This document shows positions 7,869-30,789 of a stretch of DNA of 64,000 bases, in pieces; the first letter of the stretch is position 1, and every line of letters starts with the position of its first letter. The notes under the pieces were generated by a model. That model did not search any database. It had not been told where the DNA came from and saw nothing but the letters and a program-made list of their open reading frames with translations. Where the stretch lies: positions 1 through 64,000 of the forward strand of contig JANWHQ010000045.1 of assembly GCA_025450315.1 (NCBI GenBank). Direction: 5' to 3'. Both the position numbers and the translations under genes were made by a program. Origin of the DNA: Caulobacteraceae bacterium (lineage in GTDB: Bacteria; Pseudomonadota; Alphaproteobacteria; Caulobacterales; Caulobacteraceae).

Positions 7869-7962
7869 CGAACCTCTCCCACGGCCGCCTTGCCGGCGGC
7901 TCCCATCGTCTCAAGCGAGACTATGCGGGATCAAATCCGCTTCGGCCAAGCCCTGAGATGGA

Positions 7963-14222: not shown

Positions 14223-14873
14223 TCAGATCGGCGCGCGCCGGACCGCGTCGAAGACCCTGAGCAGCTTGGGGAGGAAGTCCGGGCTGGTCAGGGTCAGAGG
14301 GCCCGGATTGTTCATCATCTGATTGTTGATCACGCTGTTGAACACCTGCAGCGCGATGCCCAGGCGGAAGACCTCGGCCTCGGACAGGGCCTCCCCGCGC
14401 AGCTCGCCCAGGCGCGCCGCGATCAGCTGGGGCCGGCGCTGGACGTAGCGGTGGAACTGGGTCCAGAAGCCCGGCGCCTGGGCCGAGCGCCGCAGGGCCG
14501 CGTGCCACAGATTGCGATTGCGCATGATCGACGCGAAGCTGTCGGACAGCACCTGCTCGACCAATCCCTCATCGGAGGCCTCGGCGAGTATCCTGGCGAA
14601 ATCGGCCTCACGGTTCTCGAAATAGACGACCACCAAGACCGCCAGGAAGTCCTCCTTGCTGCCGAAGCGCTGATAGAAGGCGCCCACCGACCGACCCGCC
14701 TCGCGCCCCAGGTCGGCCACCGACAGTTCGTCGAACGTCTTTGATTCCAACAACTTGAACGCGGCGTCCAGGAACCGCTCGGCGGTCTTCCGACTGCGAT
14801 CTTGACTGGGCGCGGGGCGTGCGGGGCCCGACGGCGGATTGACACCAAAAGATGAATCCGTATTCATGTTCAT
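14223..14873 (-). CDS. TetR family transcriptional regulator
   Basis: RSRKTAERFLDAAFKLLESKTFDELSVADLGREAGRSVGAFYQRFGSKEDFL. Confidence 0.92.
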   Translation of the reverse strand: MNMNTDSSFGVNPPSGPARPAPSQDRSRKTAERFLDAAFKLLESKTFDELSVADLGREAGRSVGAFYQRFGSKEDFLAVLVVVYFENREADFARILAEASDEGLVEQVLSDSFASIMRNRNLWHAALRRSAQAPGFWTQFHRYVQRRPQLIAARLGELRGEALSEAEVFRLGIALQVFNSVINNQMMNNPGPLTLTSPDFLPKLLRVFDAVRRAPI

Positions 14874-14972
14874 ATTCCTAGCACGCCTTCACCTGTGGAT
14901 GCCACGGGTTGGTCCCGGGGGGAACCGGATCAAGCGGGGCGCGCGGCGGACCAGAACAAGGGGGAGTCGGGC

Positions 14973-17900
14973 ATGTCTCGAGGGAACGGTCGTACTTTGC
15001 TCATGGCGCTGATGGTCGCCGCCTCGCCCGCGGCGATCGCGCACGCGGCGGACGCGCCCAAGGCCGACGGATCGGCCAACGTGCAGGAAGTGGTGGTGAC
15101 GGGATCGCACCTGCGCCAGACGGGGGTGAATTCGCCCGTTCCGCTGACCGTCGTCAACGCCACCCAGCTGAAGGAGATGGCGCCGACCACCCTGGTGGAG
15201 GGCATCACCCAGCTGCCTGAATTCTACGGCAGCCAGACGCCCCAATCCGGCAACTGGTTCACCCGCGCCGGATACGGGGACCTCAACATCCGCGGCCTGG
15301 GCGTCAACCGGACTCTGACCCTGCTGGATGGCCGCCGGGTCATCTCGCAGAACGCCTTCGGCGGCGTCGACATCGACATGTTCCCCCAGGAGATGATCAA
15401 GAGCGTCGAGACGGTGACCGGCGGCGCCTCGGCCGCCTACGGCACGGACGCCGTGGCCGGGGTGGTCAACTTCATCCTCGACACCAAGTTCACCGGCCTG
15501 AAGCTCAGCGGCCAGGGCGGAGAGACCACCCGCGGCGATGGCGGCGACTGGGAGGTCTCGGGCGCCTTCGGCACGGACTTCGCGGGCGGCAGGGGCCACG
15601 TGCTGGTCTCGGGCGAGATGTTCAAGCAGGAGGGCGTCTTCAGCTACAAGGGCCGCGACTGGTACCAGGCCTGGGGCACGATCGTCGGCCCCAACAACGA
15701 ACTGCTGATCCGTCCGAACGTGGTGTCGACGGGCTCGACCTTCGGCGGCCTGATCTATGCGCCGGGCACCCCGCTGAACGGCCTGGCCTTCAACCCGAAC
15801 GGCTCGACCTATCAGTTCCAGGCCAGCAGCGTGGCGTCGGGCGCCATCGGCACCTCGGCCGGGCGCCAGTCGATCACCAACGGAGGCTCGGGCGACGACC
15901 TCGGCGGCGGCTCGATCCCGACCCTGGATCCGGACCTGTCGCGCTACAGCGCCTTTGCCTATGCCGACTACGACCTGGCGCCGAACTTCAACGTCTACGT
16001 CCAGGGGCTGCATGGCGTGGAAAGCACGCTGGCCTACAACACCCCGGAAGGCTCGCTGCAGGGCTCGCCCACCGCGGTCACCATCTTCAGCGGTAACGCC
16101 TTCCTGCCGGCCAACGTCCAGCAGATCATGACCGCCAACAACATCGCCTCCTTCACCCTGAGGGAGACGGGCAGTCCCCAGGGCTTCGGCGGCGCCGACA
16201 CCCTGCGCGACACCAGCGTGATGAATTCGGCCACCGCCGGCTTCAAGTGGAACATCCAGGACGGCGGCGGCCTGTTCAACGACTGGAACGTCAACGGCTA
16301 CTACCAGTATGGGCACAGTACCCGGCGGATGTACCAGATCGGCCTCAACCTGCTGCACATGTTCGCCGCGGCGGACGCGGTGAAGGATCCGGCCACCGGC
16401 AACATCGTCTGCCGCACCTCGCTCTCGGCCAACCCGCTGCCCGGCTGCGTGCCGATCGACCTGTTCGGCAATGGCGCCGCCTCGCCAGCGGCGATCAGCT
16501 ACGTCACCGGCGAAACCCCCGGGGTGTCGATCACCACGCCGGTCTACTTCGCCGGCACGGGCTACAGCCCGGCACGGACCCTGAGCTACGTCTCCCAAGT
16601 GGCCAAGGTGAACATCACCACCATGAACCAGCACGTGGCCGAGCTGTCGCTGGACGGCGAGGTGTTCGACGGCTGGGGCGCGGGTCCGGTCACGGCGGCC
16701 TTCGGCGGCACCTTCCGCCGCGAGAGCATCCTTCAGCTGGTGGAGGATCCGACCAACCCGCCGGGCGACCAGACCAACGGCCGGCCGATCCCGTGCAACG
16801 GCAGCGCCGCGGCGGTGGCCTCCGGACTGCGCGGCCTGAGCCCGCCGGACTGCGCCAACACCGTCGGCATCCAGTATTCCAAGGTCTCCAACATCATCGG
16901 GGCCCTGGAGACCAAGGAGGTCTACGGAGAGACCGGCATCCCGCTGATCGCCAATGCGCCCTTCATGAAGATGGTCAAGCTCGACCTGGCCGGCCGCTGG
17001 GCCGACTACACCGGCTCGGGCGGGATCTGGGCCTACAAGGCCGGCGCCAGCTGGGACGTGATCGACGGCCTCAGGCTGCGCGGCACCTATTCGCGCGACG
17101 TCCGCGCCGCCAACCTCTCGGAACGGTTCGACAAGACCGGAGGCGCGGGCACCGTCACCGATCCGCTGCATCCGTCCGCCGGGGTGATCAACATCACCAC
17201 CTTCTCGGGCGGCAATCCGACCGTGAAGCCGGAGAAGGCCGACACCTTCACGGCCGGCGCGGTGCTGCAGCCCGGCTTCCTGCCCGGCTCGTCCTTCTCG
17301 GTCGATTGGTACCGGATCAAGATCAACGGCGCGATCGGCCAGCTCGGGGCCCAGAACGTCGTCAACCAGTGCGCGGCCGGCGCCACCGCCCTCTGCTCGC
17401 TGGTCACCCGCGACGTGAACACCGACCTGCCGATCCTGGTGGGCAACGTCTACGTCAACATCAACGAGTCCCTGGTCCGCGGCGTGGACTTCGAGGCCAA
17501 CTACACGCGCGACATCCGCCTGTTCGGCGGCGGCCCCGAGTCGGTCTCGGGGCGCTTCTTCGGCAGCTACCTGATCGAGAACTCCCAGCAGCTGAACGGC
17601 GCGGCCAAGATCGACCGCGCGGGACAGGTGGGCATCCAGCAGTCCGACGGCGTGCCCTACGCCCTGCCCCGGTTCAAGTTCACCGCCGGCCTGACCTACA
17701 GCAATGGTCCGTTCTCGGCCTATGTGCAGGGCCGCTTCATCTCCTCGGGGACCCTGGAGAACGCCGCGGTGGCCGGCACGACGATCGAGAGCAACCACGT
17801 GCGGCCGATCTTCTACCCCGACCTGACGCTGCGTTACCGGCTGAAGATCGTCGCCAATACCGAGATCTTCGGCACCATCACCAACCTGTTCGACGTCGAT

Positions 17901-18014
17901 CCGCCGGTCACGCCGTACTACAGCACCTTCAGCGACTACTCGCTGCAGACCAATCCGTCGGTGTACGATGTGCTGGGCCGGCGGTTCGTGGTGGGCGCCA
18001 CCCTCCGGTTCTAG
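14973..18014 (+). CDS. TonB-dependent receptor
   Basis: VQEVVVTGSHLRQTG plug start, NIRGLGVNRTLTLLDGRR, GGASAAYGTDAVAGVVNFIL, C-terminal beta-barrel ending VVGATLRF. Confidence 0.95.
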   Translation: MSRGNGRTLLMALMVAASPAAIAHAADAPKADGSANVQEVVVTGSHLRQTGVNSPVPLTVVNATQLKEMAPTTLVEGITQLPEFYGSQTPQSGNWFTRAGYGDLNIRGLGVNRTLTLLDGRRVISQNAFGGVDIDMFPQEMIKSVETVTGGASAAYGTDAVAGVVNFILDTKFTGLKLSGQGGETTRGDGGDWEVSGAFGTDFAGGRGHVLVSGEMFKQEGVFSYKGRDWYQAWGTIVGPNNELLIRPNVVSTGSTFGGLIYAPGTPLNGLAFNPNGSTYQFQASSVASGAIGTSAGRQSITNGGSGDDLGGGSIPTLDPDLSRYSAFAYADYDLAPNFNVYVQGLHGVESTLAYNTPEGSLQGSPTAVTIFSGNAFLPANVQQIMTANNIASFTLRETGSPQGFGGADTLRDTSVMNSATAGFKWNIQDGGGLFNDWNVNGYYQYGHSTRRMYQIGLNLLHMFAAADAVKDPATGNIVCRTSLSANPLPGCVPIDLFGNGAASPAAISYVTGETPGVSITTPVYFAGTGYSPARTLSYVSQVAKVNITTMNQHVAELSLDGEVFDGWGAGPVTAAFGGTFRRESILQLVEDPTNPPGDQTNGRPIPCNGSAAAVASGLRGLSPPDCANTVGIQYSKVSNIIGALETKEVYGETGIPLIANAPFMKMVKLDLAGRWADYTGSGGIWAYKAGASWDVIDGLRLRGTYSRDVRAANLSERFDKTGGAGTVTDPLHPSAGVINITTFSGGNPTVKPEKADTFTAGAVLQPGFLPGSSFSVDWYRIKINGAIGQLGAQNVVNQCAAGATALCSLVTRDVNTDLPILVGNVYVNINESLVRGVDFEANYTRDIRLFGGGPESVSGRFFGSYLIENSQQLNGAAKIDRAGQVGIQQSDGVPYALPRFKFTAGLTYSNGPFSAYVQGRFISSGTLENAAVAGTTIESNHVRPIFYPDLTLRYRLKIVANTEIFGTITNLFDVDPPVTPYYSTFSDYSLQTNPSVYDVLGRRFVVGATLRF

Positions 18015-18106
18015 AGCTCGCCTCGCCATGGGGCCAGCGGGCCGCACGGACCCCTCCGTGCGGCTCCTCCCCGAGCGCGCGGGCCCAACCCGTGAGTGAC
18101 CCCGAG

Positions 18107-19075
18107 ATGACCACGCCGAGCCGACGCGCCCTCGTGAAGGCCGCCGCCGCCCTGCCCGCCCTCGCCGCTGTGTCCGCGGCCGTCGCCAAGGCCGCCGAGC
18201 CTGGCGCCACCAGGCTGATCCTCCTGGGCACGCTCGGCGGACCCTCGGTGGGCCGGCCTCGCTACATGACCTCCAGCGTGATGCTGCACGGCGGTTCGGC
18301 CCATGTGCTCGACTGCGGCTACGGCGTCACCGAGCAGCTGGTCCGCGCGGGCGTGAAGCTGCAGGACATCCGCGACATCTTCATCACCCACCACCATCCC
18401 GACCACAACATCGAGCTGGGGACCCTGATCTATTTCGCCTGGTACGCCGGCCTGACCGCGCCCTTGAACCTCTACGGCCCCCCGCCCCTGCGGCGGATCA
18501 CCGCCGACTACCTCAAGGCGCTCAAGCCCGACGTGGATATCTGGCTGGACGACATCGGCCATTCGCCCCTGGGGCCGGTGAAGGTGCACGAGGTGTCCGC
18601 CGCCGGGCCGGTCATGGCCTCGGGCGACATGAAGGTGAGGTCCGCGATCGTGAACCATCCACCGGTCGCGCCGGCCCTGGGCTACCGCTTCGACTTCCCG
18701 GACCGTTCGATCGCCTTCTCGGGCGACACCACGCCGGTGGAATCGGTGGCACGGCTCGCCAAGGGCGCCGACGTGCTGGTGCACGAGGCCATGTACATGC
18801 CGGCGATGAAGGCCGAGCTCGAGGATGTCGCCAACCGCCAGGCCGGCGGCTCGGCCATCGAGGCCGACCGCGACAAGCTCTGGGCGCATCTGATGCGCTC
18901 GCATTCCCCCGCCGAGGGGGTCGGCCGCATCGCCGCCGAGGCCGGGGTGAAGACCCTGGTGCTCTATCACCTGGTGCCGATCACCGGCGTCACCGACGAC
19001 CAGTGGAAGACCGCCGTCCGCTCCGGCGGCTTCAAGGGCGAGATCATCGTGGGCCAGGACCTGATGGTGATCTGA
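18107..19075 (+). CDS. exported MBL-fold metallo-hydrolase
   Basis: Tat/Sec-like N-terminus (SRRALVKAAAALPALAAVSA), IFITHHHPDHNIELGTL, AFSGDTTP, HEAMYMP; possible in-frame GTG start at 18092. Confidence 0.85.
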   Translation: MTTPSRRALVKAAAALPALAAVSAAVAKAAEPGATRLILLGTLGGPSVGRPRYMTSSVMLHGGSAHVLDCGYGVTEQLVRAGVKLQDIRDIFITHHHPDHNIELGTLIYFAWYAGLTAPLNLYGPPPLRRITADYLKALKPDVDIWLDDIGHSPLGPVKVHEVSAAGPVMASGDMKVRSAIVNHPPVAPALGYRFDFPDRSIAFSGDTTPVESVARLAKGADVLVHEAMYMPAMKAELEDVANRQAGGSAIEADRDKLWAHLMRSHSPAEGVGRIAAEAGVKTLVLYHLVPITGVTDDQWKTAVRSGGFKGEIIVGQDLMVI

Positions 19076-19583
19076 CGGCGGCGGCCTTCTGGAAGTCGGC
19101 TGGTTTCATCTGCGGCATGGCCTCCAGGAACGCCACCAGGTCCCAGATGTCGTCATCGCTCATGGTGATCCCCCAGGCGGGCATGCCGGTCATCTTCACG
19201 CCGTTCTTCACCACCCAGAACAGCTGGCCGCGCGTCCACTGCCGCGAGGCGTCCAGCAGGAAAGGCGGCGGCGGGTTCATTCCCTGGACCCAGGTTGCGC
19301 GCGCCACGCCCGGGCCGCCGTGGCAGACCAAGCATCGCTGCTCGTACAGATGCATCCCGGCGACGGTCTGGGCCGGGGTGAAGGCCGCCGGAGGGCGCAC
19401 GTCCTCCGCGCCTTGGCGCACGGAATGGATCATGGTCGTGTGGGTCGCCCAGGCGGTCACGATATTGTGCGGCGTGGAGGCGCGGGTGTCGAAGGCGCCG
19501 GTCTCGATCACCACCAGGCCAGTGGCGCCGAACGCCGCCAGGGTCAGGATCACGCCGCCGAGCAGCCAGGCCCAACCTCTCAT
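19044..19583 (-). CDS. c-type cytochrome
   Basis: CLVCHGGPGVARATWVQGMNPPPPFL ... MTGMPAWGITMSDDDIWDLVAFLEAMP. Confidence 0.85.
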   Translation of the reverse strand: MRGWAWLLGGVILTLAAFGATGLVVIETGAFDTRASTPHNIVTAWATHTTMIHSVRQGAEDVRPPAAFTPAQTVAGMHLYEQRCLVCHGGPGVARATWVQGMNPPPPFLLDASRQWTRGQLFWVVKNGVKMTGMPAWGITMSDDDIWDLVAFLEAMPQMKPADFQKAAAVRSPSGPGPR

Positions 19584-19939
19584 CTCAGCGTCTCGAGGTA
19601 GGCGGCGGCGTCCCTCGCCTGCTGTTCGGAGAGGCCCATGTCCGGCATGGCGTTACCGGGAACAGCGGCCTGCGGCGCGCGCAGCCAGGCGACGAGGTTG
19701 TCCGGGGTGTTGGCCATCACGCCGGCGATCATCGTGCGGCTGGCCAGGCCGCGGAGGGGCGGTCCGGCCAAGCCGTCCGCGAAGATGACCCCGGGGATGA
19801 TGTGGCAGGAGCCGCATTGGGCCTGGCCGATCACGAAATGACCTCGGTCGGCATCGCCGATTGCGGTCGGCGCGCTGCGCCCGCAGGCGGCGAGACCCAG
19901 GCCAAGCACGGCCAGAACCGAAACGACGACAATCCGCAT
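19580..19939 (-). CDS. c-type cytochrome lipoprotein
   Basis: lipobox LAAC; QCGSCHIIPGVIFADGLAGPPL ... PGNAMPDMGLSEQQARDAAAYLETLR. Confidence 0.88.
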   Translation of the reverse strand: MRIVVVSVLAVLGLGLAACGRSAPTAIGDADRGHFVIGQAQCGSCHIIPGVIFADGLAGPPLRGLASRTMIAGVMANTPDNLVAWLRAPQAAVPGNAMPDMGLSEQQARDAAAYLETLR

Positions 19940-20152
19940 TTCCAATCCGCGATCACTTCGGCGGGCGTTGGCGCGCCGGCCTTGCATCTCCTGGCGGCGC
20001 TGATCGACCCCGACCTCCAAGCCCGCCGAGCTCTGACTTCGCAGTCGGTGGAACCCGTCGCCTGGACACTGGTTCCCGGTCGTTGCGGGCCGTCGCGCGC
20101 AGATGGCCGGACGGTTAATAAAATATCCCATAGTGATGCAACCGCGCACGGC

Positions 20153-21019
20153 ATGATTGCGTTCCTCACGGGCGAAGGACCAGAGGGCGGGACCGTGGCG
20201 GGGCGGCAAATTCCTATTCCCTATTGCGGAACGCCGCCCGATCCGGGGCAGCTTCTGCATCGCTGGAACCTTGATCCGGTGCTGATCGCGGCGCTGGCGG
20301 TTATCTGGGCGGCCTATGCCATCGGCGCTTCCCGCGCCGGCGCGGGCCGGCGGGAGAAGACGTTCTTCCATTGCGGATGGGCGCTCACGGCGGCGGCGCT
20401 GATCTCGCCGCTGTGCCCCTTGTCGGTTTCCCTGTTCGCCGCCCGCGTGGGACAGCACATGATCCTGACCCTGGTCGCCGCCCCCCTGGTGGCCGCCGGT
20501 CGCCCCGGCCTGGCGTTGCGCGGCCTGCTGGGACGGCGCTGTCCGCTGCCCGCGCGCGGCGAGGGCGCGGCCAAGAGCGCGGTGCTGGCGGCGGGACTGT
20601 TCTGGGCGCTGCTCTGGTACTGGCACGCGCCGGGCCCCTACGCGGCCACCTTCGAGAGCACCGTGGTCTACTGGACCATGCACCTGACGGTGTACGGGTC
20701 GGCCCTGTGGCTGTGGAGCGCCCTGCTCGCCCAGCCGCACCGGCAGCCGGTCTGGACCATCGCGGCGGGCCTGGTGTCGACCGCCCAGATGGGCCTGCTG
20801 GGGGCGTTGATCACCCTTGCCCCCCGCGCGCTCTATGCGCCGCATTTCACCACCACCTTCGCCTGGGGCCTGACTCCCCTTCAGGACCAGCAGCTGGGCG
20901 GGGCCATCATGTGGGTCCCCGGTTGCGCGGTGTTCCTGATGGCCGCCATGGCCGAGCTGTCGGCCCTGCTGACGGATCCCGCCGAACGCCTGCCGCGCCT
21001 GAGGGCGATGACGCGATGA
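20153..21019 (+). CDS. CtaG-family (caa3_CtaG-like) cytochrome c oxidase assembly membrane protein
   Basis: polytopic; VGQHMILTLVAAPLVAAGRPGLALR, FWALLWYWHAPGPYAATFESTVVYWTMHLTV. Confidence 0.85.
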   Translation: MIAFLTGEGPEGGTVAGRQIPIPYCGTPPDPGQLLHRWNLDPVLIAALAVIWAAYAIGASRAGAGRREKTFFHCGWALTAAALISPLCPLSVSLFAARVGQHMILTLVAAPLVAAGRPGLALRGLLGRRCPLPARGEGAAKSAVLAAGLFWALLWYWHAPGPYAATFESTVVYWTMHLTVYGSALWLWSALLAQPHRQPVWTIAAGLVSTAQMGLLGALITLAPRALYAPHFTTTFAWGLTPLQDQQLGGAIMWVPGCAVFLMAAMAELSALLTDPAERLPRLRAMTR

Positions 21020-22062
21020 GGCGGCGCACGGGGGAGAGGCTCGGACGCGCGGCGCGGAGCGTTGCCGGATTGTCGGCGGCGTTGCTGGCGAAACCCGCGG
21101 CGGCCGCCACGCCGATGAGCTTTCTCGGAGGCTGGGGCTCCCGCGCCTATCCGGTCGTGGATCTCACCTGGGAGGCGCTGATCATCTCGATCGCCGTCTG
21201 CCTGATCATCACGCTCCTGGTCGCCTGGGGAGCGCTCGCGAAGCGCAGCCGCAGCGCCTTCGGGCCCATCGGCGCCGAGCCCGTGGAGCGCCGGCCCGGC
21301 GGCATGAAGTGGATCGTCTGGGGCGTGGGACTCTCGGTCATCCCGCTGGTGGTGACCCTGATCTGGACCGTGTCGGTGCTGGCGGCGGTCAACCAGCCGA
21401 AGGGCGCCGAGCCGTTCACCATCGAGGTGACCGGACATCAGTGGTGGTGGGAGGTCCGGTACAGGGATGCCGATCCCAGCCGGGTCTTCGTGACCGCCAA
21501 CGAGATCCACATCCCCGTCGGCCACCCCGTCCGCCTGGAGCTGAAGGGCGCGGACGTGATCCATTCGTTCTGGGTCCCGGCGCTGGCGGGCAAGACCGAC
21601 ACCATCCCGGGGCAAACCAACGTGACATGGCTGGAGGCCGACCGGGCGGGCCGCTACGTCGGGCAGTGCACCGAATACTGCGGCCTTCAACACGCCCATA
21701 TGGCGGTCTTCGTCATCGCCGATCCGCCGGCCGTGTTCGCGCATTGGTGGCAGAGCCAGCTGGCCGCCGCGGCCCCGCCCGCAACGGTCGAGGCCCAGCA
21801 GGGCCAAGCCCTGTTCGTGACCAAGTGCGGCTCCTGCCACACCGTCAACGGCACCATGGCCCAGGGCAAGGTGGCGCCCGACCTCACGCATCTGATGAGC
21901 CGCGCCACGATCGCCGCCGGCGCCGCGCCCAACACGCCCGCCGGCCTCTCGGGCTGGATCGCCAATCCCCAGGGCGTGAAGCCGGGGACCCTGATGCCGA
22001 CGCTCTATCTGTCCGGCCCGCAGCTCACGCAGGTGCGGGGCTACCTTGAGACGCTGAAGTGA
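21016..22062 (+). CDS. coxB: cytochrome c oxidase subunit II with C-terminal cytochrome c domain (caa3 type)
   Basis: CuA region IEVTGHQWWWEVRY..DVIHSFWVPALAGKTDTIPGQTN..GQCTEYCGLQHAHMAV; C-terminal CGSCHTVNGTMAQGKVAPDLTHL. Confidence 0.95.
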   Translation: MRRRTGERLGRAARSVAGLSAALLAKPAAAATPMSFLGGWGSRAYPVVDLTWEALIISIAVCLIITLLVAWGALAKRSRSAFGPIGAEPVERRPGGMKWIVWGVGLSVIPLVVTLIWTVSVLAAVNQPKGAEPFTIEVTGHQWWWEVRYRDADPSRVFVTANEIHIPVGHPVRLELKGADVIHSFWVPALAGKTDTIPGQTNVTWLEADRAGRYVGQCTEYCGLQHAHMAVFVIADPPAVFAHWWQSQLAAAAPPATVEAQQGQALFVTKCGSCHTVNGTMAQGKVAPDLTHLMSRATIAAGAAPNTPAGLSGWIANPQGVKPGTLMPTLYLSGPQLTQVRGYLETLK

Positions 22063-22072
22063 AGGGGACGTC

Positions 22073-24016
22073 ATGAGCGCCTCGGACATCTCGCGCACGC
22101 CCGACATCGTCCACGTGGACGAGGGCCTGCATCGCCGCCTCGAGGAGATCTGGAAAGGGCGGCCGGGGATCTACGGCTGGTTCGCCACCGTGGACCACAA
22201 GAAGCTGGGCGTCCGCTACATCGTCACCGCCTTCGCCTTCCTGATCCTGGGCGGGCTCGAAGCGCTGGTGATGCGGGTGCAGCTCTACCGGCCCGGCGAG
22301 CACCTGCTGACCCCGGACCAGTACAACCAGCTGTTCTCGACGCACGGGATGACGATGATCTTCCTCTATGCGTTCCCCGTCTTGTCGGGCTTCTCGATCT
22401 TCCTGTGGCCGCTGATCTTCGGCACGCGGGACATGGCTTTCCCGAGGCTGAACGCCTTCTCCTACTGGATCTTCCTGTTCTCGGGCCTGTTCATGTACTC
22501 GGGCTTCGTCATCGGCCAGGGACCCAACGACGGCTGGTTCAACTACGTCCCATTCGCCGAGCTTCCCTACAATCCAGGCCTGAACCAGGACTTCTACAGC
22601 CTGGGAATGATCTTCTTCGGCCTTTCGACCACCATCGGGGCCGCCAACTTCATCGCCACGTTCCTCAAGACCCGCGCGCCGGGCATGTCCCTCGGCCGGG
22701 TCCCGATCATGACCTGGGGGACAATCACCGCCTCGGCCGCCAACCTCCTGGTGGTGCCGGCCGTCAGCCTGGCCTTCCTGATGCTGTGGTTCGACCGGCA
22801 GTTCGGCATGCACTTCTTCGACACCGGGCAGGGCGGCCAACCGCTGCTCTGGCAGCACCTGTTCTGGATGTTCGGCCACCCATGGGTCTACGCCCTGGTG
22901 CTCCCGGCCATGGGAATGGTGCACGAGGGCCTGCCGGTGTTCTGTCGCCGGCCGCTGGTGGGCTACACGCCTGTCGCGCTCTCCACCGTCGCCACCATGA
23001 TCCTGGGCTTCGGGGTGTGGGTGCACCACATGTTCGCCACTGGCTTGCCGACGCTGGGCCTGTCGTTCTTCTCGGCCGCGTCGATCGTCATCGTGATTCC
23101 CAGCGCGGTGGCGGTGTTCGCCTGGATCGCCACCATCTGGACCGGGCGCGTGGTGTGGACCACCGCCTTCCTCTTCTTCGCCAGCATGATCGTGCTGTTC
23201 ACGATCGGCGGGGTTTCGGGCTTCATGACCGCCCTGGCCCCCGTCGACCTGCAGCTGACCGACACCTACTTCGTGGTGGCGCACATCCACTATGTGCTCA
23301 TCGGCATCAACGTCTTCCCGGTCTGCGGCGGCCTCTACTACTGGTTCCCCAAGTTCACCGGACGGATGCTCGACGAGCGCCTGGGGCGGTGGAACTTCTG
23401 GACCATGTTCGTCGGGTTCAACCTGTGCTTCCTGCCCATGCACCTGACCGGCCTGCTGGGCATGCCGCGCCGGATCTACACCTACCCGTCCGAGATGGGC
23501 TGGACCTTCCTGAATCAGGTCACGACGGTCGGGGCCTTCCTGTTCGCGCTGGGCGTCCTGCTGCTGATCGTCAACGTCGTCGTCAGCCTCCGGCGCGGCG
23601 CGTTCGCCGGGGCCAATCCGTGGGACAGCTACAGCCTGGAGTGGGCGATCCCGTCGCCCCCGCCGTCCTACGACTTCGCCGTGATCCCCACCGTCTCCAG
23701 CCGCTACCCCCTGTGGGAAGGCCGGCTGCGGAACGACGAGACCCTCTCCTCGGCCGAGGACGGGCCATCGCTGGAGCACGAGAAGGAGATGCTGCTCACC
23801 AGTTCGCTTGACGCCGATCCCACCCTGATCGTGAAGATGCCGGAGGACACCCTGACGCCGTTCGTGCTCAGCCTGGGCCTGACCGTCGGCTTCGTGGGCC
23901 TGCTGCTGCGGCTCTGGCCGCTGGCCGGCGCCGGCGCAGCGATCTGCATCCTCAGCCTCATCGTATGGGTCTGGCCCCGCCGCAAGCTGGCCCAGGTCGC
24001 GGAGGCACGGCTATGA
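22073..24016 (+). CDS. ctaD: cytochrome c oxidase subunit I
   Basis: WFATVDHKKLGVRYI, HPWVYALVLPAMGMVHE, VWVHHMFATGLP, LTDTYFVVAHIHYVLIGINVFPVCGGLYYWFPKFTGRM. Confidence 0.97.
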   Translation: MSASDISRTPDIVHVDEGLHRRLEEIWKGRPGIYGWFATVDHKKLGVRYIVTAFAFLILGGLEALVMRVQLYRPGEHLLTPDQYNQLFSTHGMTMIFLYAFPVLSGFSIFLWPLIFGTRDMAFPRLNAFSYWIFLFSGLFMYSGFVIGQGPNDGWFNYVPFAELPYNPGLNQDFYSLGMIFFGLSTTIGAANFIATFLKTRAPGMSLGRVPIMTWGTITASAANLLVVPAVSLAFLMLWFDRQFGMHFFDTGQGGQPLLWQHLFWMFGHPWVYALVLPAMGMVHEGLPVFCRRPLVGYTPVALSTVATMILGFGVWVHHMFATGLPTLGLSFFSAASIVIVIPSAVAVFAWIATIWTGRVVWTTAFLFFASMIVLFTIGGVSGFMTALAPVDLQLTDTYFVVAHIHYVLIGINVFPVCGGLYYWFPKFTGRMLDERLGRWNFWTMFVGFNLCFLPMHLTGLLGMPRRIYTYPSEMGWTFLNQVTTVGAFLFALGVLLLIVNVVVSLRRGAFAGANPWDSYSLEWAIPSPPPSYDFAVIPTVSSRYPLWEGRLRNDETLSSAEDGPSLEHEKEMLLTSSLDADPTLIVKMPEDTLTPFVLSLGLTVGFVGLLLRLWPLAGAGAAICILSLIVWVWPRRKLAQVAEARL

Positions 24017-24609
24017 CCGAAGTCGTCCTGACGCCTGGGCCCCTGCCGGTCGGGCCCCACGACAAGAAGAGCTCCACCTGGTGGGGCGTGCTCTGCCTCA
24101 TCGCCACCGAGGCCGCGCTCTTCTCCTATCTCGAGTTCAGCTACTACTATTTCGACGTGCAGCTGCCGCACAGTTGGCGGCCCGAGCCGCCGAAGCTGCA
24201 CTACGCCCTGCCCGATACCATCGTGCTTCTGGCCTCCAGCGTGTTCGTCTGGATCGCCGAGCGGGCGATCAAGCGGGGCGAGCGCGGCAAGGCCATGATC
24301 AACCTGATGATCGGCTTCGTGCTGGGCGTGATCTTCGTGGGCGTCCAGGGCCTGGAGTGGAGCGAGAAGACCTTCCGGCCCCAGACCGGTCCCTATGGCT
24401 CGCTCTATTTCACCACGACCGGCTTCCACATGGTCCACGTGATCGCCGGGCTGGGCGGGCTGTTCTTCATCATGCTCTGGCTCGGCATGGGACTGATCGA
24501 CTCCCGCCGCAACGCCGCCCTCTCCAACGTCGCGATCTACTGGCACTTCGTCGACGCCGTGTGGGTGACGCTGTTCTTCATGTTCTACATCAGCCCGCAC
24601 CTGTGGTGA
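24013..24609 (+). CDS. ctaE: cytochrome c oxidase subunit III
   Basis: FLGVQGLEW-type VGVQGLEWSEKTF, GSLYFTTTGFHMVHVIAGLGGLFFIMLWLG, YWHFVDAVWVTLFFMFYI. Confidence 0.95.
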   Translation: MTEVVLTPGPLPVGPHDKKSSTWWGVLCLIATEAALFSYLEFSYYYFDVQLPHSWRPEPPKLHYALPDTIVLLASSVFVWIAERAIKRGERGKAMINLMIGFVLGVIFVGVQGLEWSEKTFRPQTGPYGSLYFTTTGFHMVHVIAGLGGLFFIMLWLGMGLIDSRRNAALSNVAIYWHFVDAVWVTLFFMFYISPHLW

Positions 24610-24612
24610 GCC

Positions 24613-25053
24613 ATGACCAGGATCGTCCACACCACGGCGCCTCCCGCGATCCCAGCGCCCCATCTGCTGCGCCAGCTCGTCCGTCCGGTGTTCGGCGTCT
24701 TCGGCGCTCCAGCCGCCTGGATCGCCCAGCTCCTGCTGAACTACGCCCTGGCCGCCTACCCGTGCATGCCGAACGACATGCCCTACCCCGCGCCGCCTTC
24801 GAGCTGGGCGTGGGACCGGCCGGTGCTGTTCGTGGTGAACATTCTGGCCCTGATCGTGGCCCTGGCCGCCGCCGTGACGGCCACCGCCGACTGGCGCCGC
24901 ACGCGCGGGTGGAACCAGCACGGCGCCTTGCAGGCGCGAGCGACCCGGGTCCGCTTCCTGGCCTACTGCGGGCTCATGACGGGATGGGGATTCCTGCTCG
25001 CCATCGCCTTCAACACCGTCGACCTGATCGGGGTGCCGGCATGCTCGGGCTGA
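24613..25053 (+). CDS. hypothetical polytopic membrane protein in oxidase operon
   Basis: tightly packed between ctaE and cytochrome gene; several hydrophobic helices. Confidence 0.75.
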   Translation: MTRIVHTTAPPAIPAPHLLRQLVRPVFGVFGAPAAWIAQLLLNYALAAYPCMPNDMPYPAPPSSWAWDRPVLFVVNILALIVALAAAVTATADWRRTRGWNQHGALQARATRVRFLAYCGLMTGWGFLLAIAFNTVDLIGVPACSG

Positions 25054-25418
25054 AGCCGGCGCTGGCCCTCCTCGCCGCAGCCCTCGCCCTGGGCGCGGGC
25101 GCGGCGCAGGCGCGACCTCGGCCCCCCGGAGCGGCCGGCGGGGACGCGGCGCGGGGCCGCGCCCTCATCGCCAAGGAAGGCTGTGGGAGCTGCCACGAGA
25201 TCCCCGGCGTGGCTTCGGCCCACGGCCTGGTGGGCCCGCCGCTCGATCACATGGCGCGCCGGACCACCATCGCCGGCATGCTGCCCAATACGCCCCAGAA
25301 CATGGTCCGCTGGATCGAGGCCCCTCAGAGCGTCGTGCCCGGCAACGCCATGCCCAACATGGAGATCAACGACCATGACGCACGCGACGTCGCGGCCTAT
25401 CTCTATACGCTGCGCTGA
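25041..25418 (+). CDS. c-type cytochrome
   Basis: EGCGSCHEIPGVASAHGLVGPPLDHMARRTTIAGMLPNTPQNMVRWIEAPQSVVPGNAMPNM. Confidence 0.9.
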   Translation: MLGLKPALALLAAALALGAGAAQARPRPPGAAGGDAARGRALIAKEGCGSCHEIPGVASAHGLVGPPLDHMARRTTIAGMLPNTPQNMVRWIEAPQSVVPGNAMPNMEINDHDARDVAAYLYTLR

Positions 25419-27261
25419 CCCCCCGGCCCGCCGCCGCACGGGCGCCCGCGCCTTGCTGGGCCTTGCCTGCGCCGCCGCTCTCCTCGCCGGATGCAACAAG
25501 GGAGGCGGGGTGACCGCCACACCGCCGCCGGAGGGCGGCCAGGTGCAGGCCAACAACGTCTCCACCGCGGACAACGGCGAGTGGACCATGCCGGCCCACG
25601 ACTATGCGTCCACCCGGTTCTCCGGCCTGAACGAGATCGACAACTCCAATGTCGGCCGCATGCAGGTGGCCTTCACCTTCTCCACGGGGGTCGACAAGGG
25701 CCAGGAAGCCGCCCCGATCGTGGCGAACAACACCATGTATATCGTGGCGCCCTATCCGAACTACGTCTTCGCCCTGGACCTGACGAAACCTGGCGCGCCC
25801 TTGAAGTGGGAGTACAAGCCCAACCCTTCGCCGGCCAGCCAGGGGGTCGCCTGCTGCGACGTGGTCAACCGCGGCGCCGTCTATTCCAACGGCAAGCTGT
25901 TCTTCAACACCCTGGACGGAGCGACGATCGCGCTCGACGCCAACACCGGCAAGGAGATCTGGCGCACCCAGCTGGGCGACATCAACAAGGGCGAGAGCGT
26001 CACCATGGCGCCCCTGGTGGTGAAGGATAAGGTCCTCGTCGGCGTCTCGGGCGGCGAGTTCGGCGTGCGCGGATGGCTGCAGGCGCTCGACGCCAACACC
26101 GGCAAGGTCGTCTGGAAGGCCTACCACACCGGCCCCGACAAGGATGTGCTGATCGGGGCGGACTTCCATCCCTACTATGCCGAAGACCGAGGCAAGGATC
26201 TCGGGGTGTCGACCTGGCCGCCGGACGCCTGGAAGATCGGCGGCGGCTCCATGTGGGGCTGGATCACCTACGATCCGAGCCTGAACCTGATCTTCTACGG
26301 CACCGGCAACCCGGGCCCCTGGAACGCCACCCAGCGCCCCGGCGACAACAAATGGACGGCCGGCATCTTCGCCCGCGACCCCGACACCGGGGCCGCGAAA
26401 TGGTTCTACCAGATGAACCCGCACGACGAGCACGACTACGACGGGATCAACGAGATCCTGGAGCTGACCGTGCCGGTGAACGGCCTGCCGCGGAAGGTGC
26501 TGCTGCACCCGGACCGCAACGGCTATCTCTATGAAATGGACCCGTCCACCGGCCAGGTGCTGGCGGCCGATCCCTATGGCTACATCAACTCCACCAAGGG
26601 TGTGGACCTGCGGACGGGCCGGATCATCGTCAATCCGGACAAGTCGCCCAAGCTCGGCAGCGTCGTCCGCGACATCTGTCCCACGGCCTCCGGCGCCAAG
26701 GACTGGGAGCCGTCGTCCTACTCTCCCCGCACCGGCCTGATGTACCTGCCGCACGAGAACCTCTGCATGGACTGGCAGGACATGCAGACCAACTACATCT
26801 CTGGCACCCCCTACGTCGGCGCCGAGGTGGTGATGAAGCCGGGGCCCGGCGGCAACCGGGGCTTCCTGACGGCCTGGGACCCGGTCCATCGCAAGATCGC
26901 CTGGCAGGTGAAGGAGGACCTTCCCGTGTGGTCAGGCACGGTGACCACGGCCGGAGACCTGGTCTTCTATGGAACCATGGACGGCTGGTTCAAGGCAGTC
27001 GACGCGCGCAGCGGCCAGCTCCGATGGCAGTTCAAGACAGGCTCCGGGATCATCGGGCAGCCGGTCGCCTACAAGGGTCCGGACGGCCACGAATACATCG
27101 CCGTGCTTTCCGGCGTCGGCGGCTGGTCCGGCGCCATCGTCTCGGGAAACCTGGATCCGCACGACAAGACCAGCGCGCTCGGCTTCGTCGGCGCCATGGC
27201 GGACCTCAAGCAGAAGAGCACGCCGGGAGGGACTCTCTATGTCTTCACCCTGCCTCACTGA
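25375..27261 (+). CDS. PQQ-dependent alcohol dehydrogenase, predicted lanthanide-type (Asp-x-Asp motif)
   Basis: vicinal CC (GVACCDVVN), GTGNPGPWNATQRPGDNKW, MNPHDEHDYDGINEILE, HPDRNGYLYEMDPSTG. Confidence 0.92.
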   Translation: MTHATSRPISIRCADPPARRRTGARALLGLACAAALLAGCNKGGGVTATPPPEGGQVQANNVSTADNGEWTMPAHDYASTRFSGLNEIDNSNVGRMQVAFTFSTGVDKGQEAAPIVANNTMYIVAPYPNYVFALDLTKPGAPLKWEYKPNPSPASQGVACCDVVNRGAVYSNGKLFFNTLDGATIALDANTGKEIWRTQLGDINKGESVTMAPLVVKDKVLVGVSGGEFGVRGWLQALDANTGKVVWKAYHTGPDKDVLIGADFHPYYAEDRGKDLGVSTWPPDAWKIGGGSMWGWITYDPSLNLIFYGTGNPGPWNATQRPGDNKWTAGIFARDPDTGAAKWFYQMNPHDEHDYDGINEILELTVPVNGLPRKVLLHPDRNGYLYEMDPSTGQVLAADPYGYINSTKGVDLRTGRIIVNPDKSPKLGSVVRDICPTASGAKDWEPSSYSPRTGLMYLPHENLCMDWQDMQTNYISGTPYVGAEVVMKPGPGGNRGFLTAWDPVHRKIAWQVKEDLPVWSGTVTTAGDLVFYGTMDGWFKAVDARSGQLRWQFKTGSGIIGQPVAYKGPDGHEYIAVLSGVGGWSGAIVSGNLDPHDKTSALGFVGAMADLKQKSTPGGTLYVFTLPH

Positions 27262-27790
27262 GCCGCGCCGGCTCGCCCTGGCGCTGGCCCTCGCGCTGGG
27301 AGCCGCAGGCTGTCACGCCAGCCCGCCGGCGGCCGCCACTGCCCCCCCCGCGCAGCAATCGCCGCAACCGGTGGTCCTGTCCGAGCTCCTGCCGGGCGGC
27401 GCCCAGCCGCAGCCGGAGGACCCGCGGGGCAAGATCTACGACGGCAACCCGTACTACATCTCCCAGGGCAAGCAGTATTACGCCTGGTACAACTGCAGCG
27501 GCTGCCACTTCAACGGCGGCGGGGGCATCGGCCCCGCCTTCATGGACAAGGTCTGGATCTACGGCGGGCGGATCGACCAGATCTACAACTCCATCGCCGA
27601 AGGCCGTCCGAACGGCATGCCGACCTGGCGCCAGAAGATCCCCGACGGGCAGATCTGGGAGATCGCCGCTTACGTGCGCTCGCTCTCCACGCCGCAGGTC
27701 AAGGCGGAACAGCCGCCCAACGCGGCGCCGCCTCCGGTCCAGCCGCCGGCCACGCCCAACCACCAGGGCGGACAGACCAGCCCTTCATGA
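27239..27790 (+). CDS. c-type cytochrome (alcohol dehydrogenase-associated, XoxG-like position)
   Basis: lipobox AAGC; NCSGCHFNGGGGIGPAFMD ... NGMPTWRQKIPDGQIWEIAAYVRSL. Confidence 0.88.
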   Translation: MSSPCLTEPRRLALALALALGAAGCHASPPAAATAPPAQQSPQPVVLSELLPGGAQPQPEDPRGKIYDGNPYYISQGKQYYAWYNCSGCHFNGGGGIGPAFMDKVWIYGGRIDQIYNSIAEGRPNGMPTWRQKIPDGQIWEIAAYVRSLSTPQVKAEQPPNAAPPPVQPPATPNHQGGQTSPS

Positions 27791-28761
27791 TCGGCAAGGG
27801 CGCTTGGGCCGTCGTTCTGGTCGCGGCGCTGGCCGGCTGCGCCCAGCCGCAGGTGGCGCGGCACATGGCCTATGTGTCCGACGAACAGGGCAATGTCGTC
27901 CACGTGATCGACGGGACCTCCGACCGGCTGGTCGGCGACATCCCGGTGGGGGGCCGTCCGCGCGGGATGGCCGTCAGCGCCGACGGCAGGACCCTCTATG
28001 TGGCCGCCGGCAACGCCAATCGGATCGACGTGGTGGATCTGGCCTCCCGCCGCGTGGTCGACCACCTTCCCTCGGGCCCGGATCCCGAACGTTTCGCCCT
28101 CAGCCCCGATGGGTCGGCCCTCTATGTCGCCAATGAAAACGACAGCAAGGCCTCCAAGATCGACATCGGGGCCAAGCGCATCGTCTGGCAGACGTCGGTC
28201 GGCCCCGAGCCGGAGGGAATGGCGGTGAGCCCGGATGGCCGATGGGTGATCTGCACCTCCGAGTCGGCCAGCCTGGTGCATTTCATCCGCGCCGCCGACG
28301 GCCGGCTGGTGCAGAGCGTCCTGGTCGGCACCCGCCCGCGCGACGCCCGCTTCAGCCCCGACGGCCGGCGGCTCTGGGTCAGCTCCGAGGCGCGCGCCAC
28401 CGTCGCCGTGTTCGACACCGCCACGCGGCGGATGATCCGCACCGTCGATTTCGAGGACGATCCGATTTCACCCGACGTCCAGGCCGTGGGCCTCGCCATG
28501 ACCCGCAAGGGCGACCGGCTCTACGTCGGCCTCGGCCGGGGGGACCACGTCGCCGAGATCGACACGGCCTCGGGCCGGATCCTTCGCTACTTCCGCGTCG
28601 GCCACCGCACCTGGGGCGTGGCCCTGTCGCCCGACGAGCGGCGGCTCTATGCCGCGAACGGCCTGTCGGGGGATGTGTCGGTGATCGACCTGAAGTCGGG
28701 CCGGACCGTCGCGACGGTCAAGGTCGGAGGCAGACCCTGGGGCGCGGTGACCGCGCCATGA
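27787..28761 (+). CDS. YVTN-type beta-propeller protein (PQQ-dependent catabolism-associated type)
   Basis: repeated AYVSDEQGNVVHVIDGTSDRLVGDIPVGGRPRGMAVSADGRTLYVA repeats. Confidence 0.85.
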   Translation: MIGKGAWAVVLVAALAGCAQPQVARHMAYVSDEQGNVVHVIDGTSDRLVGDIPVGGRPRGMAVSADGRTLYVAAGNANRIDVVDLASRRVVDHLPSGPDPERFALSPDGSALYVANENDSKASKIDIGAKRIVWQTSVGPEPEGMAVSPDGRWVICTSESASLVHFIRAADGRLVQSVLVGTRPRDARFSPDGRRLWVSSEARATVAVFDTATRRMIRTVDFEDDPISPDVQAVGLAMTRKGDRLYVGLGRGDHVAEIDTASGRILRYFRVGHRTWGVALSPDERRLYAANGLSGDVSVIDLKSGRTVATVKVGGRPWGAVTAP

Positions 28762-29561
28762 GATGGCTCGCCGCCCTTCCGATCCTGGCGCTGTTGGCCG
28801 CCTGCCAGGTGCAGCCGAAGGTCTTGAAGGTCTGCGCCGATCCCAACGACATGCCGTTCTCGAATTCGCATCGGGACGGATTCGAGAACAAGATCGCCGA
28901 ACTGGTCGCTCGGGACCTGCATCGGCGCGTGGACTATTATTGGTGGCCGCAATGGCGCGGCTATGTGCGCAAGACCCTGAACGCCGGCCAATGCGATCTC
29001 TGGCCGGGCGTCGCCAGCCAGCTGGAGATGCTGGCGACCACCCGCCCGTACTACCGGTCGACCTATGTGTTCGTGACGCGAAAGGATCGCGGCCTCGACA
29101 TCTCGTCGTTCGACGATCCGCGGCTCCGGCGGCTGAAGATCGGCGTGCAGATGATCGGCAACGATTCCACCAACACGCCGCCCACCTTCGCCCTCGCCCG
29201 CCGCGGCATCACCCGCAACGTGCGCGGGTTCATGGTGTATGGCGACTACAACAAGCCCGATCCGCAGGCGCCGATCGTCAAGGCGGTGGAGGACGGCGAC
29301 GTCGACGTGGGCGTGGTCTGGGGACCGCTCGCCGGCTACTTCGCCTCCCGCTCCAAGGTCTCTCTCGCCATCGCGCCCGTGCATCCCTGGCTGGACGGTC
29401 CCAACATGCCCATGGTGTTCGACATCTCCATGGGCGTGCGCAAGTCGGACGTGGCGCTGAAGCGCCGGATCGACCTCATCCTCAGGCGGGAGGCTCCCCG
29501 GATCAGGGCCATCCTCGACAGCTATGGCGTGCCTGGACCTCCGCCGGAGGCCCAGGGCTGA
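28758..29561 (+). CDS. quinoprotein dehydrogenase-associated periplasmic substrate-binding protein (XoxJ-like)
   Basis: LKVCADPNDMPFSNSHRDGFENKIAELVARDL..VDYYWWPQWRGYVRKTLNAGQCDLWPGV. Confidence 0.88.
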   Translation: MRWLAALPILALLAACQVQPKVLKVCADPNDMPFSNSHRDGFENKIAELVARDLHRRVDYYWWPQWRGYVRKTLNAGQCDLWPGVASQLEMLATTRPYYRSTYVFVTRKDRGLDISSFDDPRLRRLKIGVQMIGNDSTNTPPTFALARRGITRNVRGFMVYGDYNKPDPQAPIVKAVEDGDVDVGVVWGPLAGYFASRSKVSLAIAPVHPWLDGPNMPMVFDISMGVRKSDVALKRRIDLILRREAPRIRAILDSYGVPGPPPEAQG

Positions 29562-29568
29562 GCCGGCC

Positions 29569-30090
29569 TCAGTGGGCGGCCTGCAGGCCCTTCTGGCTGC
29601 GCAGCTCCAGATATCGGTCCAGGGTGGGCAGCATGTGGGCGTGCAGCCACTCGGCCATCGCCCGCTCTTCGGCCAGGCAGCTCTCGAGCAAGGGAACGGC
29701 CCGTTCCTGCGCCGCCTTTTCCGCCAGGGCGATCATGCCCTCGTAGGCGCAGATCTCGTATTCGGCCAGGCCGTAGGTGGCCATGCTGGTCTTGAGGATG
29801 TCGTCCTCGAGCCCGCCGGTCATCAGGCCGGTCAAGCCTCCCATCACCGACATGGCGCTGTCCTTGAGCGAGGAGGCGTCCTCGCCCATGGCGCCGAGGA
29901 CCTCTTCGAGCCGACGCATCTCGTTGTCCTTGTCGACAAGGTGGGCGCGCTGGCGACTCTTGGCTTCGGGATAGTCATCGAGCCTGTCGATGACGCGCTC
30001 GATCATTGTCTTGGCGTTCTTCTGGATCGCGTGAAGGTTGCGAGCTTCGCTCGCCAGCAGATGGCCAGCAATTCCCTGAACGCCAGACAT
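29569..30090 (-). CDS. DUF892 ferritin-like protein
   Basis: DNEMRRLEEVLGAMGEDASSLKDS...ATYGLAEYEICAYEGMIALAEKA..ERAVPLLESCLAEERAMAEWL. Confidence 0.85.
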   Translation of the reverse strand: MSGVQGIAGHLLASEARNLHAIQKNAKTMIERVIDRLDDYPEAKSRQRAHLVDKDNEMRRLEEVLGAMGEDASSLKDSAMSVMGGLTGLMTGGLEDDILKTSMATYGLAEYEICAYEGMIALAEKAAQERAVPLLESCLAEERAMAEWLHAHMLPTLDRYLELRSQKGLQAAH

Positions 30091-30165
30091 GGTTACTCCT
30101 TTCGACAAACACGGGCCAAGGGTCTGGCCGGGCCGGCGACGATGGCGGTTGGGGCATGCCTTCCA

Positions 30166-30191
30166 AACCCATTCAGAGGGTCGGCCGTTCC
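30166..30191 (-). promoter_or_regulatory. EcfG-like promoter candidate GGAAC-N18-GTTT upstream of DUF892 gene
   Basis: reverse strand GGAAC ggccgaccctctgaatgg GTTT, about 75 nt from start. Confidence 0.45.
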
Positions 30192-30216
30192 CCAGAACCG
30201 CCGCCGTCGACCTCCG

Positions 30217-30789
30217 CTAGACGCGGTCGGAGGCCTGGTCCGGACCCGTCGGAGCCGCGCCCTCATCGACCGGCTCGCCGTGCTCGAGCTCGACGCCCTT
30301 GAAGCTGCGGGTCTCGGGCGTGGGCAGGCCGCCGGCCTTGATCTGGGCCAGCACCTCCTGCTTGCGCGCGGCCATCTGCTGGCCCAGGGCGTCCATGTCG
30401 AGCTCGGCCTTGCGGGCCTGGGCGAACAGGCCCTCGGCGGGCTTCTCCTCTTCCTTGACGTGGTGCTGGATCTGCTCGGACAGCACCTTGACCTTGGCGT
30501 CGTAGAACGCTTCGTCCGGGCCGCCCGCCTCGATCTCGGCGATCAGCACCTTGGCGCCGTCGTGCTCGACGTAGGATTCCTCGAGCAGGTCTTCCTCCGC
30601 CTTGCCCTTGCAGGCCGGGTAGAAGATCTCCTCCTCGATGATCGTGTGCACCGTCAGCTCGGTGCAGATCTCCTTGGCGAGGCTTTCCTTCTGCGCCTTG
30701 CCGCGGGCGCTTTCGAACTTCTCGAACAGGCCCTCGACCTTGCGGTGGTCGGCCTTCAGCAGGGCGATGGCGTCGGGTTGGTCGGCCAT
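30217..30789 (-). CDS. hemerythrin HHE domain protein
   Basis: DAIALLKADHRKVEGLFEKFE...VHTIIEEEIFYPACKG...EHDGAKVLIAEIE..HVKEEE. Confidence 0.92.
   Translation of the reverse strand: MADQPDAIALLKADHRKVEGLFEKFESARGKAQKESLAKEICTELTVHTIIEEEIFYPACKGKAEEDLLEESYVEHDGAKVLIAEIEAGGPDEAFYDAKVKVLSEQIQHHVKEEEKPAEGLFAQARKAELDMDALGQQMAARKQEVLAQIKAGGLPTPETRSFKGVELEHGEPVDEGAAPTGPDQASDRV

Follow-up and report, generated by a model that had tools for sequence, protein, structure and literature searches.

XoxF-type alcohol dehydrogenases encoded with caa3-type oxidases that have lost proton-channel residues

In a 64,000-nucleotide stretch of a Caulobacteraceae draft genome (assembly GCA_025450315.1, contig JANWHQ010000045.1, positions 1 to 64,000; hereafter the window), ten genes on the same strand, running from ctaG to xoxJ, are packed nearly without gaps at 20153-29561 and place a caa3-type oxidase together with a pyrroloquinoline quinone (PQQ)-dependent dehydrogenase of the XoxF type. 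We think it likely that this cluster encodes a self-contained periplasmic respiratory module leading from alcohol to O2, with a private oxidase whose proton delivery would be abnormal. The association of XoxF with an oxidase as such is already published and is not unique to the window or to Caulobacterales: XoxF3 is accompanied by CoxI/II/III, CtaG, CytC, XoxG and XoxJ in all XoxF-bearing Acidobacteria genomes of one study, which also describes related clusters from Gemmatimonadetes and Verrucomicrobia and cites an earlier mention that a few xoxF3 operons include cox and ctaG (PMC10875860). The broad idea of pairing is therefore not new. Two points appear new, namely the loss of D-channel and K-channel residues in the XoxF-linked oxidases, and the presence of two oxidase lineages with XoxF together with re-pairing. 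A literature search gave no specific account of channel-residue loss in this oxidase group, most subscription journals lying outside its coverage, so that an earlier description is possible.

Well-studied A-family O2 reductases receive their protons through a D-channel and a K-channel. We read the channel residues from aligned CtaDs, whose motifs align gap-free, in Paracoccus denitrificans numbering, where we take D124, N131, E278, Y280 and K354 to be the canonical positions. The window ctaD (22073-24016, +; PF00115 490 bits, TIGR02891 just below cut-off) has Trp in place of E278, at TTCGGCCACCCATGGGTCTAC (22871-22891, +; FGHPWVY), and Ala in place of K354, with Y280 and all metal ligands retained. 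It belongs to a group, here called type A, that also includes members from Sphingomonas, several gammaproteobacterial metagenome-assembled genomes and others. All 18 type A sequences carry Trp at 278 (GHPWVY) and Ala, Thr, Ser or Gly at 354, and all 18 keep D124 and N131; only D124 is thus retained of the three residues that mark A1-type enzymes (D124, E278, K354), and the YSHPxV motif of the A2 type is absent from type A, which has FGHPWVY instead. In the second XoxF-linked group, type B, E278 is retained and K354 is replaced by Gln in 54 of 54 sequences, and position 124, the entry of the D-channel, lacks an acid in 50 of the 53 rows that can be read there, the other three having Asp (two) or Glu (one). 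As the acid survives in the type B loci L049, L079 and L151, the entry loss in this group may have been gradual or repeated. The caa3 oxidases found without XoxF have D124 and E278 retained (15/15) and K354 changed to Gln (15/15), and three ordinary oxidases read D, E and K at 124, 278 and 354. All aligned CtaDs retain the heme, CuB and tyrosine residues, and all 18 type A CoxBs the CuA motif and heme c tail (CxxCH). A Fisher test of channel loss against XoxF linkage gave p=5e-17, calculated over rows that are related and with one fragment row scored as lost. The D-channel of A-family oxidases carries every pumped proton together with two or three of the chemical protons, and the K-channel carries the remainder (PMC8079940). 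As E278 and K354 are gone from type A around an intact catalytic centre, these enzymes would reduce O2 with altered proton delivery, and proton pumping by the XoxF-linked oxidases is probably altered, perhaps absent.

The pairing itself was surveyed from both sides. For the forward survey, 80 relatives were fetched and pairing was counted over the 45 for which at least about 19 kb of sequence was available; a caa3 cassette lies beside xoxF in 44 of these (L100 being counted via a split ctaD), in loci that span Pseudomonadota, Acidobacteriota, Gemmatimonadota and Verrucomicrobiota. The sole unpaired long-flank relative is L038, and the XoxFs without a nearby oxidase are those of L038 and L168. 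The reverse survey started from CtaD or the GHPWVY pattern and found type A oxidases within a xoxF cluster in six of six other genomes (G498, G391, G388, G017, G835, G891) and type B in two of two, with XoxF at none of 15 related caa3 loci. Across 395 genomes of the class, CtaDs 65-71% identical to that of the window sit in xoxF clusters (G498, G391, G388), two at 47-48% identity are also xoxF-linked, and 15 at 40-45% are unlinked; the FGHPWVY codon pattern occurs in 4 of 399 Pseudomonadota genomes, each time inside a xoxF cluster. The gene-neighbourhood comparison that the earlier note had proposed for this pairing thus gave strong support to it in both directions. An ordinary caa3 operon that merely happens to lie beside an ordinary xox operon, with no functional link, would explain why gene order differs among genomes, the same parts reappearing in at least three orders, and why an oxidase is missing from the vicinity of a few XoxFs. 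Such accidental proximity is contradicted by linkage across four phyla, by its persistence when the search begins at the oxidase and by its survival through rearrangement and oxidase replacement. Within the window genome, moreover, no oxidase lies next to the other quinoprotein loci examined, and the other oxidases are likewise unpaired. We therefore reject this explanation, to which we attach almost no probability.

The paired oxidases fall into two lineages with different gene orders. Type A clusters usually have the oxidase upstream (ctaG-coxB-ctaD-ctaE-memX-cycC-xoxF-cycD-(yvtn)-xoxJ), with a variant order ctaG-xoxF-cycD-coxB-ctaD-ctaE-memX in L169-L171 and further variants in L149 and L150, and type B clusters run xoxF-(xoxJ)-cycD-coxB-ctaD-ctaE-small protein-ctaG-cycC. 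In a careful CtaD tree, type A forms one clade (100/99), type B another (100/97) and the XoxF-free caa3 oxidases a third. For the XoxF partners, the approximately unbiased (AU) test rejects a single clade of those that accompany type A (p=0.0008, careful model) and likewise of those that accompany type B (p=0.017); the window XoxF is nested among XoxFs whose oxidases are otherwise of type B. On these trees, re-pairing of XoxF with different oxidases rather than co-inheritance is well supported. Individual loci also contain more than one set or copy of a part: besides its type A oxidase-XoxF cluster, the L071 contig has a second CtaD/CtaE/CtaG set (44% CtaD) on the opposite strand, which brings two oxidase sets near each other, L106 (Opitutus) has two ctaD copies within its cluster, and L092 (Acidobacteriota) has two xoxF genes in tandem.

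In the published XoxF3 clusters, CoxIII and CtaG are separated by a small protein that is itself conserved (PMC10875860). The window gene memX (24613-25053, +) codes for a membrane protein of three helices in which two Cys are conserved, and profile comparison relates it to the equivalent small protein, encoded between ctaE and ctaG in type B clusters. In the XoxF3 clusters examined here, which are of type B, the oxidase lies downstream of xoxF and its CtaD, about 47% identical to that of the window, keeps E278 and has lost D124, whereas the window has its oxidase upstream, from lineage A and with E278W. A memX relative is present in 18 of 18 type A loci, in 33 other XoxF loci and in 2 of 15 unlinked loci. 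The AlphaFold2 model of memX is a confident three-helix protein (predicted local distance difference test score 84), and comparison of this model with PDB folds returned no match at E<=0.001. At one XoxF-free caa3 locus (L159:8955-11972), a memX-like domain stands at the C-terminal end of a large ctaD reading frame.

The dehydrogenase had been described in the earlier note as a PQQ alcohol dehydrogenase; a PQQ dehydrogenase is indeed present, but it is not a generic one. The product of xoxF (25375-27261, +; lipobox LLAGC) passes TIGR03075 with 632 bits (cut-off 480), its best PDB relative is XoxF2 from strain SolV, a lanthanide enzyme (4mae, 654 bits), and quinoprotein ethanol dehydrogenases of the ExaA type reach at most 336 bits with it, behind the methanol dehydrogenases. 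The additional Asp two residues past the catalytic Asp is present (PHDEHDYDGINE, versus PHDEWDYAGVN in MxaF). By these comparisons the dehydrogenase is of the XoxF type and probably lanthanide-dependent. In trees it groups with sequences from Acidobacteria, Gemmatimonadetes and Solibacter, apart from XoxF2, XoxF5 and MxaF, and it probably belongs to clade XoxF3, the references used including no sequence of that name. Its surroundings recall the ped/exa systems (PedE/PedH, ExaA) in combining a PQQ dehydrogenase with a beta-propeller, a binding protein and a cytochrome c, but the window enzyme sits on another branch, the exa/ped enzymes scoring far below the methanol dehydrogenases. A calcium-dependent enzyme, or one with a substrate other than short alcohols, would fit a genome in which no Fae (formaldehyde oxidation by the tetrahydromethanopterin route) was found and a motif with His where Trp is usual (PHDEHDYD), and XoxF3 enzymes were without published biochemistry at the time of PMC10875860. 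We consider this improbable in view of the extra Asp (DYD, where MxaF has DYA), of nearest solved relatives that are XoxF enzymes, and of the increase of XoxF3 protein with cerium in Methylosinus trichosporium OB3b (PMC12482762). The window also contains a second PQQ dehydrogenase-like protein (6090-7910, -), 34% identical to XoxF and with no oxidase match alongside.

In the mechanism that we propose, XoxF with its PQQ would oxidise methanol or another short alcohol, with XoxJ and the beta-propeller as accessory proteins. Electrons would pass from XoxF to the XoxG-like cytochrome cycD and then, presumably in this order, to small cytochromes c (cycC) or the cytochrome c tail of CoxB, from where they would travel through CuA and heme a to heme a3/CuB, the predicted site of O2 reduction. 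The genes from ctaG to xoxJ would be transcribed as one unit, and protons would be delivered to the oxidase abnormally, with weak or zero pumping, leaving the enzyme to serve XoxF chiefly as a private electron sink. The window genome also retains a bc1 complex and other heme-copper oxidases, so the caa3 enzyme at xoxF is an additional oxidase. The route resembles the methanol dehydrogenase chain (XoxF/MxaF, cytochrome cL, cytochrome cH, aa3), in which a PQQ enzyme passes electrons through c-type cytochromes to a terminal oxidase without quinone or bc1, and it departs from that chain in that one cluster also encodes the oxidase, which has its own cytochrome c, and in that cycD is no canonical cytochrome cL. 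Conservation of the neighbourhood supports the suggestion of the earlier note that the locus forms one dedicated alcohol-to-O2 chain, but the bypass of quinone and bc1 that the note proposed does not set the locus apart, as it is the textbook route for methanol dehydrogenases. With the caa3 A-family oxidases, such as that of Thermus (2yev), the window enzyme shares CuA, the fused cytochrome c, CtaG, the heme and CuB ligands and the active-site Tyr; unlike them, it is without the K-channel lysine and has neither the glutamate of A1 nor the YS motif of A2 enzymes. An arrangement in which the whole path is a solid-state wire of lipoproteins was considered and rejected: XoxF, cycD, yvtn, xoxJ and cycB look lipoprotein-like here, but by the rule used a XoxF lipobox occurs in only 5 of 17 type A and 18 of 73 other homologues.

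Several points weigh against this interpretation. The D-channel losses amount to about two independent events, one per XoxF-linked lineage, and residues that we do not recognise could restore proton uptake. Against the XoxG/cytochrome cL model TIGR03872, cycD scores 30.8 bits where the cut-off is 147.8. With regard to re-pairing, a single XoxF clade for type A was not rejected under a quick model without reference enzymes (p=0.09), nor was a single clade of type A and type B oxidases (p=0.43), and a single ancestral pairing followed by loss and swaps is possible.

That type A enzymes pump weakly or not at all is a proposition to which we would give slightly less than an even chance. Somewhat behind it comes the same electron route ending in a fully coupled oxidase, in which other residues stand in for E278 and K354 and pumping is normal. 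The Glu is replaceable, a YS motif taking its place in A2-type enzymes, and type A combines its conserved D124 and N131 with additional, lineage-specific conserved polar residues in the membrane helices (T217, T219, N224, S232, T386). FGHPWVY is not the A2 motif, however, K354 has given way to small residues and not to another base, and in type B, too, a D-channel acid is gone, at another position. Loss of residues from both channels also recalls the nitric oxide reductases, which are fed protons from the periplasm, and the divergent subunit I might on that account be such a reductase or an inactive relative. This we regard as very unlikely: Y280, the three CuB histidines, the heme ligands, CuA and the copper factor CtaG are all conserved, and nitric oxide reductases lack the Tyr and contain FeB. 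At the other extreme, the XoxF-linked oxidases might constitute a new functional class of heme-copper O2 reductases that do not pump, reached twice by different D-channel losses after the K-channel lysine had already gone, and perhaps drawing protons from the periplasm. We offer this only tentatively and think it rather unlikely; if it were true, alcohol oxidation would be a nearly uncoupled electron sink, unrestrained by the proton gradient.

The supply of PQQ also deserves comment. The earlier note saw no PQQ biosynthesis genes in the window, and the absence extends to the draft genome of 164 contigs, where PqqC is absent and PqqE falls below cut-off; about 12 further PQQ-dehydrogenase-like matches are found there. 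PqqC is likewise absent from five other genomes with type A clusters, yet the same search did find it in 4 of 10 further genomes that carry XoxF; this pattern suggests that PQQ is scavenged.

The gene content of the locus was checked by listing open reading frames, inspecting start codons and scanning with Pfam and NCBIfam, and all genes previously named from ctaG to xoxJ, and two divergent cytochromes c, were present on the strands given. The cluster begins with ctaG (20153-21019, +; PF09678 117 bits), a caa3 assembly factor, and coxB (21016-22062, +; PF00116 and PF00034, TIGR02866 above cut-off), a subunit II with the CuA motif CTEYCGLQHAHM and a C-terminal cytochrome c (CxxCH tail); this fused CuA subunit and the nearby ctaG assign the oxidase to the caa3 type. 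Beyond ctaD lie ctaE (24013-24609, +; PF00510) for subunit III and, after memX, the small cytochrome c gene cycC (25041-25418, +; PF00034). Downstream of xoxF follow cycD (27239-27790, +; PF13442), a lipoprotein-like cytochrome c and XoxG candidate, yvtn (27787-28761, +; TIGR03866 351 bits, above cut-off), a PQQ-associated beta-propeller, and xoxJ (28758-29561, +; TIGR03871 287 bits, cut-off 212), a MoxJ/XoxJ-type binding protein. The start of xoxF is either the ATG at 25375, which overlaps cycC by 44 bases, or a TTG at 25453, which leaves a gap of about 34 bases; with the former, neighbouring genes overlap or lie no more than 10 bases apart at all nine consecutive junctions. A transcription scan was uninformative, promoter matches being no more frequent than in shuffled sequence; nine terminator-like matches (3.1 expected) lay mostly within genes, with no clear break between the oxidase and xox halves. 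The divergent cytochromes c are cycA (19044-19583, -; CLVCH, PF13442 59 bits), whose homologue adjoins the cluster in L040 (Sphingomonas sp. Root710), L045 and L193, and cycB (19580-19939, -; CGSCH, PF00034, start set by start-codon inspection), which is small and lipoprotein-like; in Sphingomonas, homologues of these cytochromes c border the cluster. Just ahead of the cluster (14223-19075) are genes for a TetR regulator, a TonB receptor and a metallo-beta-lactamase-fold protein. The last two, both assigned to genuine protein families, were considered for a role in lanthanide or PQQ uptake; a search around other XoxF loci returned no match to the receptor. On the opposite strand, the cluster is followed by genes for DUF892 and hemerythrin-domain proteins (29569-30789, -).

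Altogether, these clusters suggest that one dehydrogenase has been paired with different oxidases, and that in widespread soil bacteria the lanthanide-dependent oxidation of alcohol is coupled to a private oxidase, with consequences for estimates of the energy yield from soil methanol. As conserved natural families with a full catalytic centre from which key residues of both channels are gone, the oxidases offer material to test what proton pumping needs.

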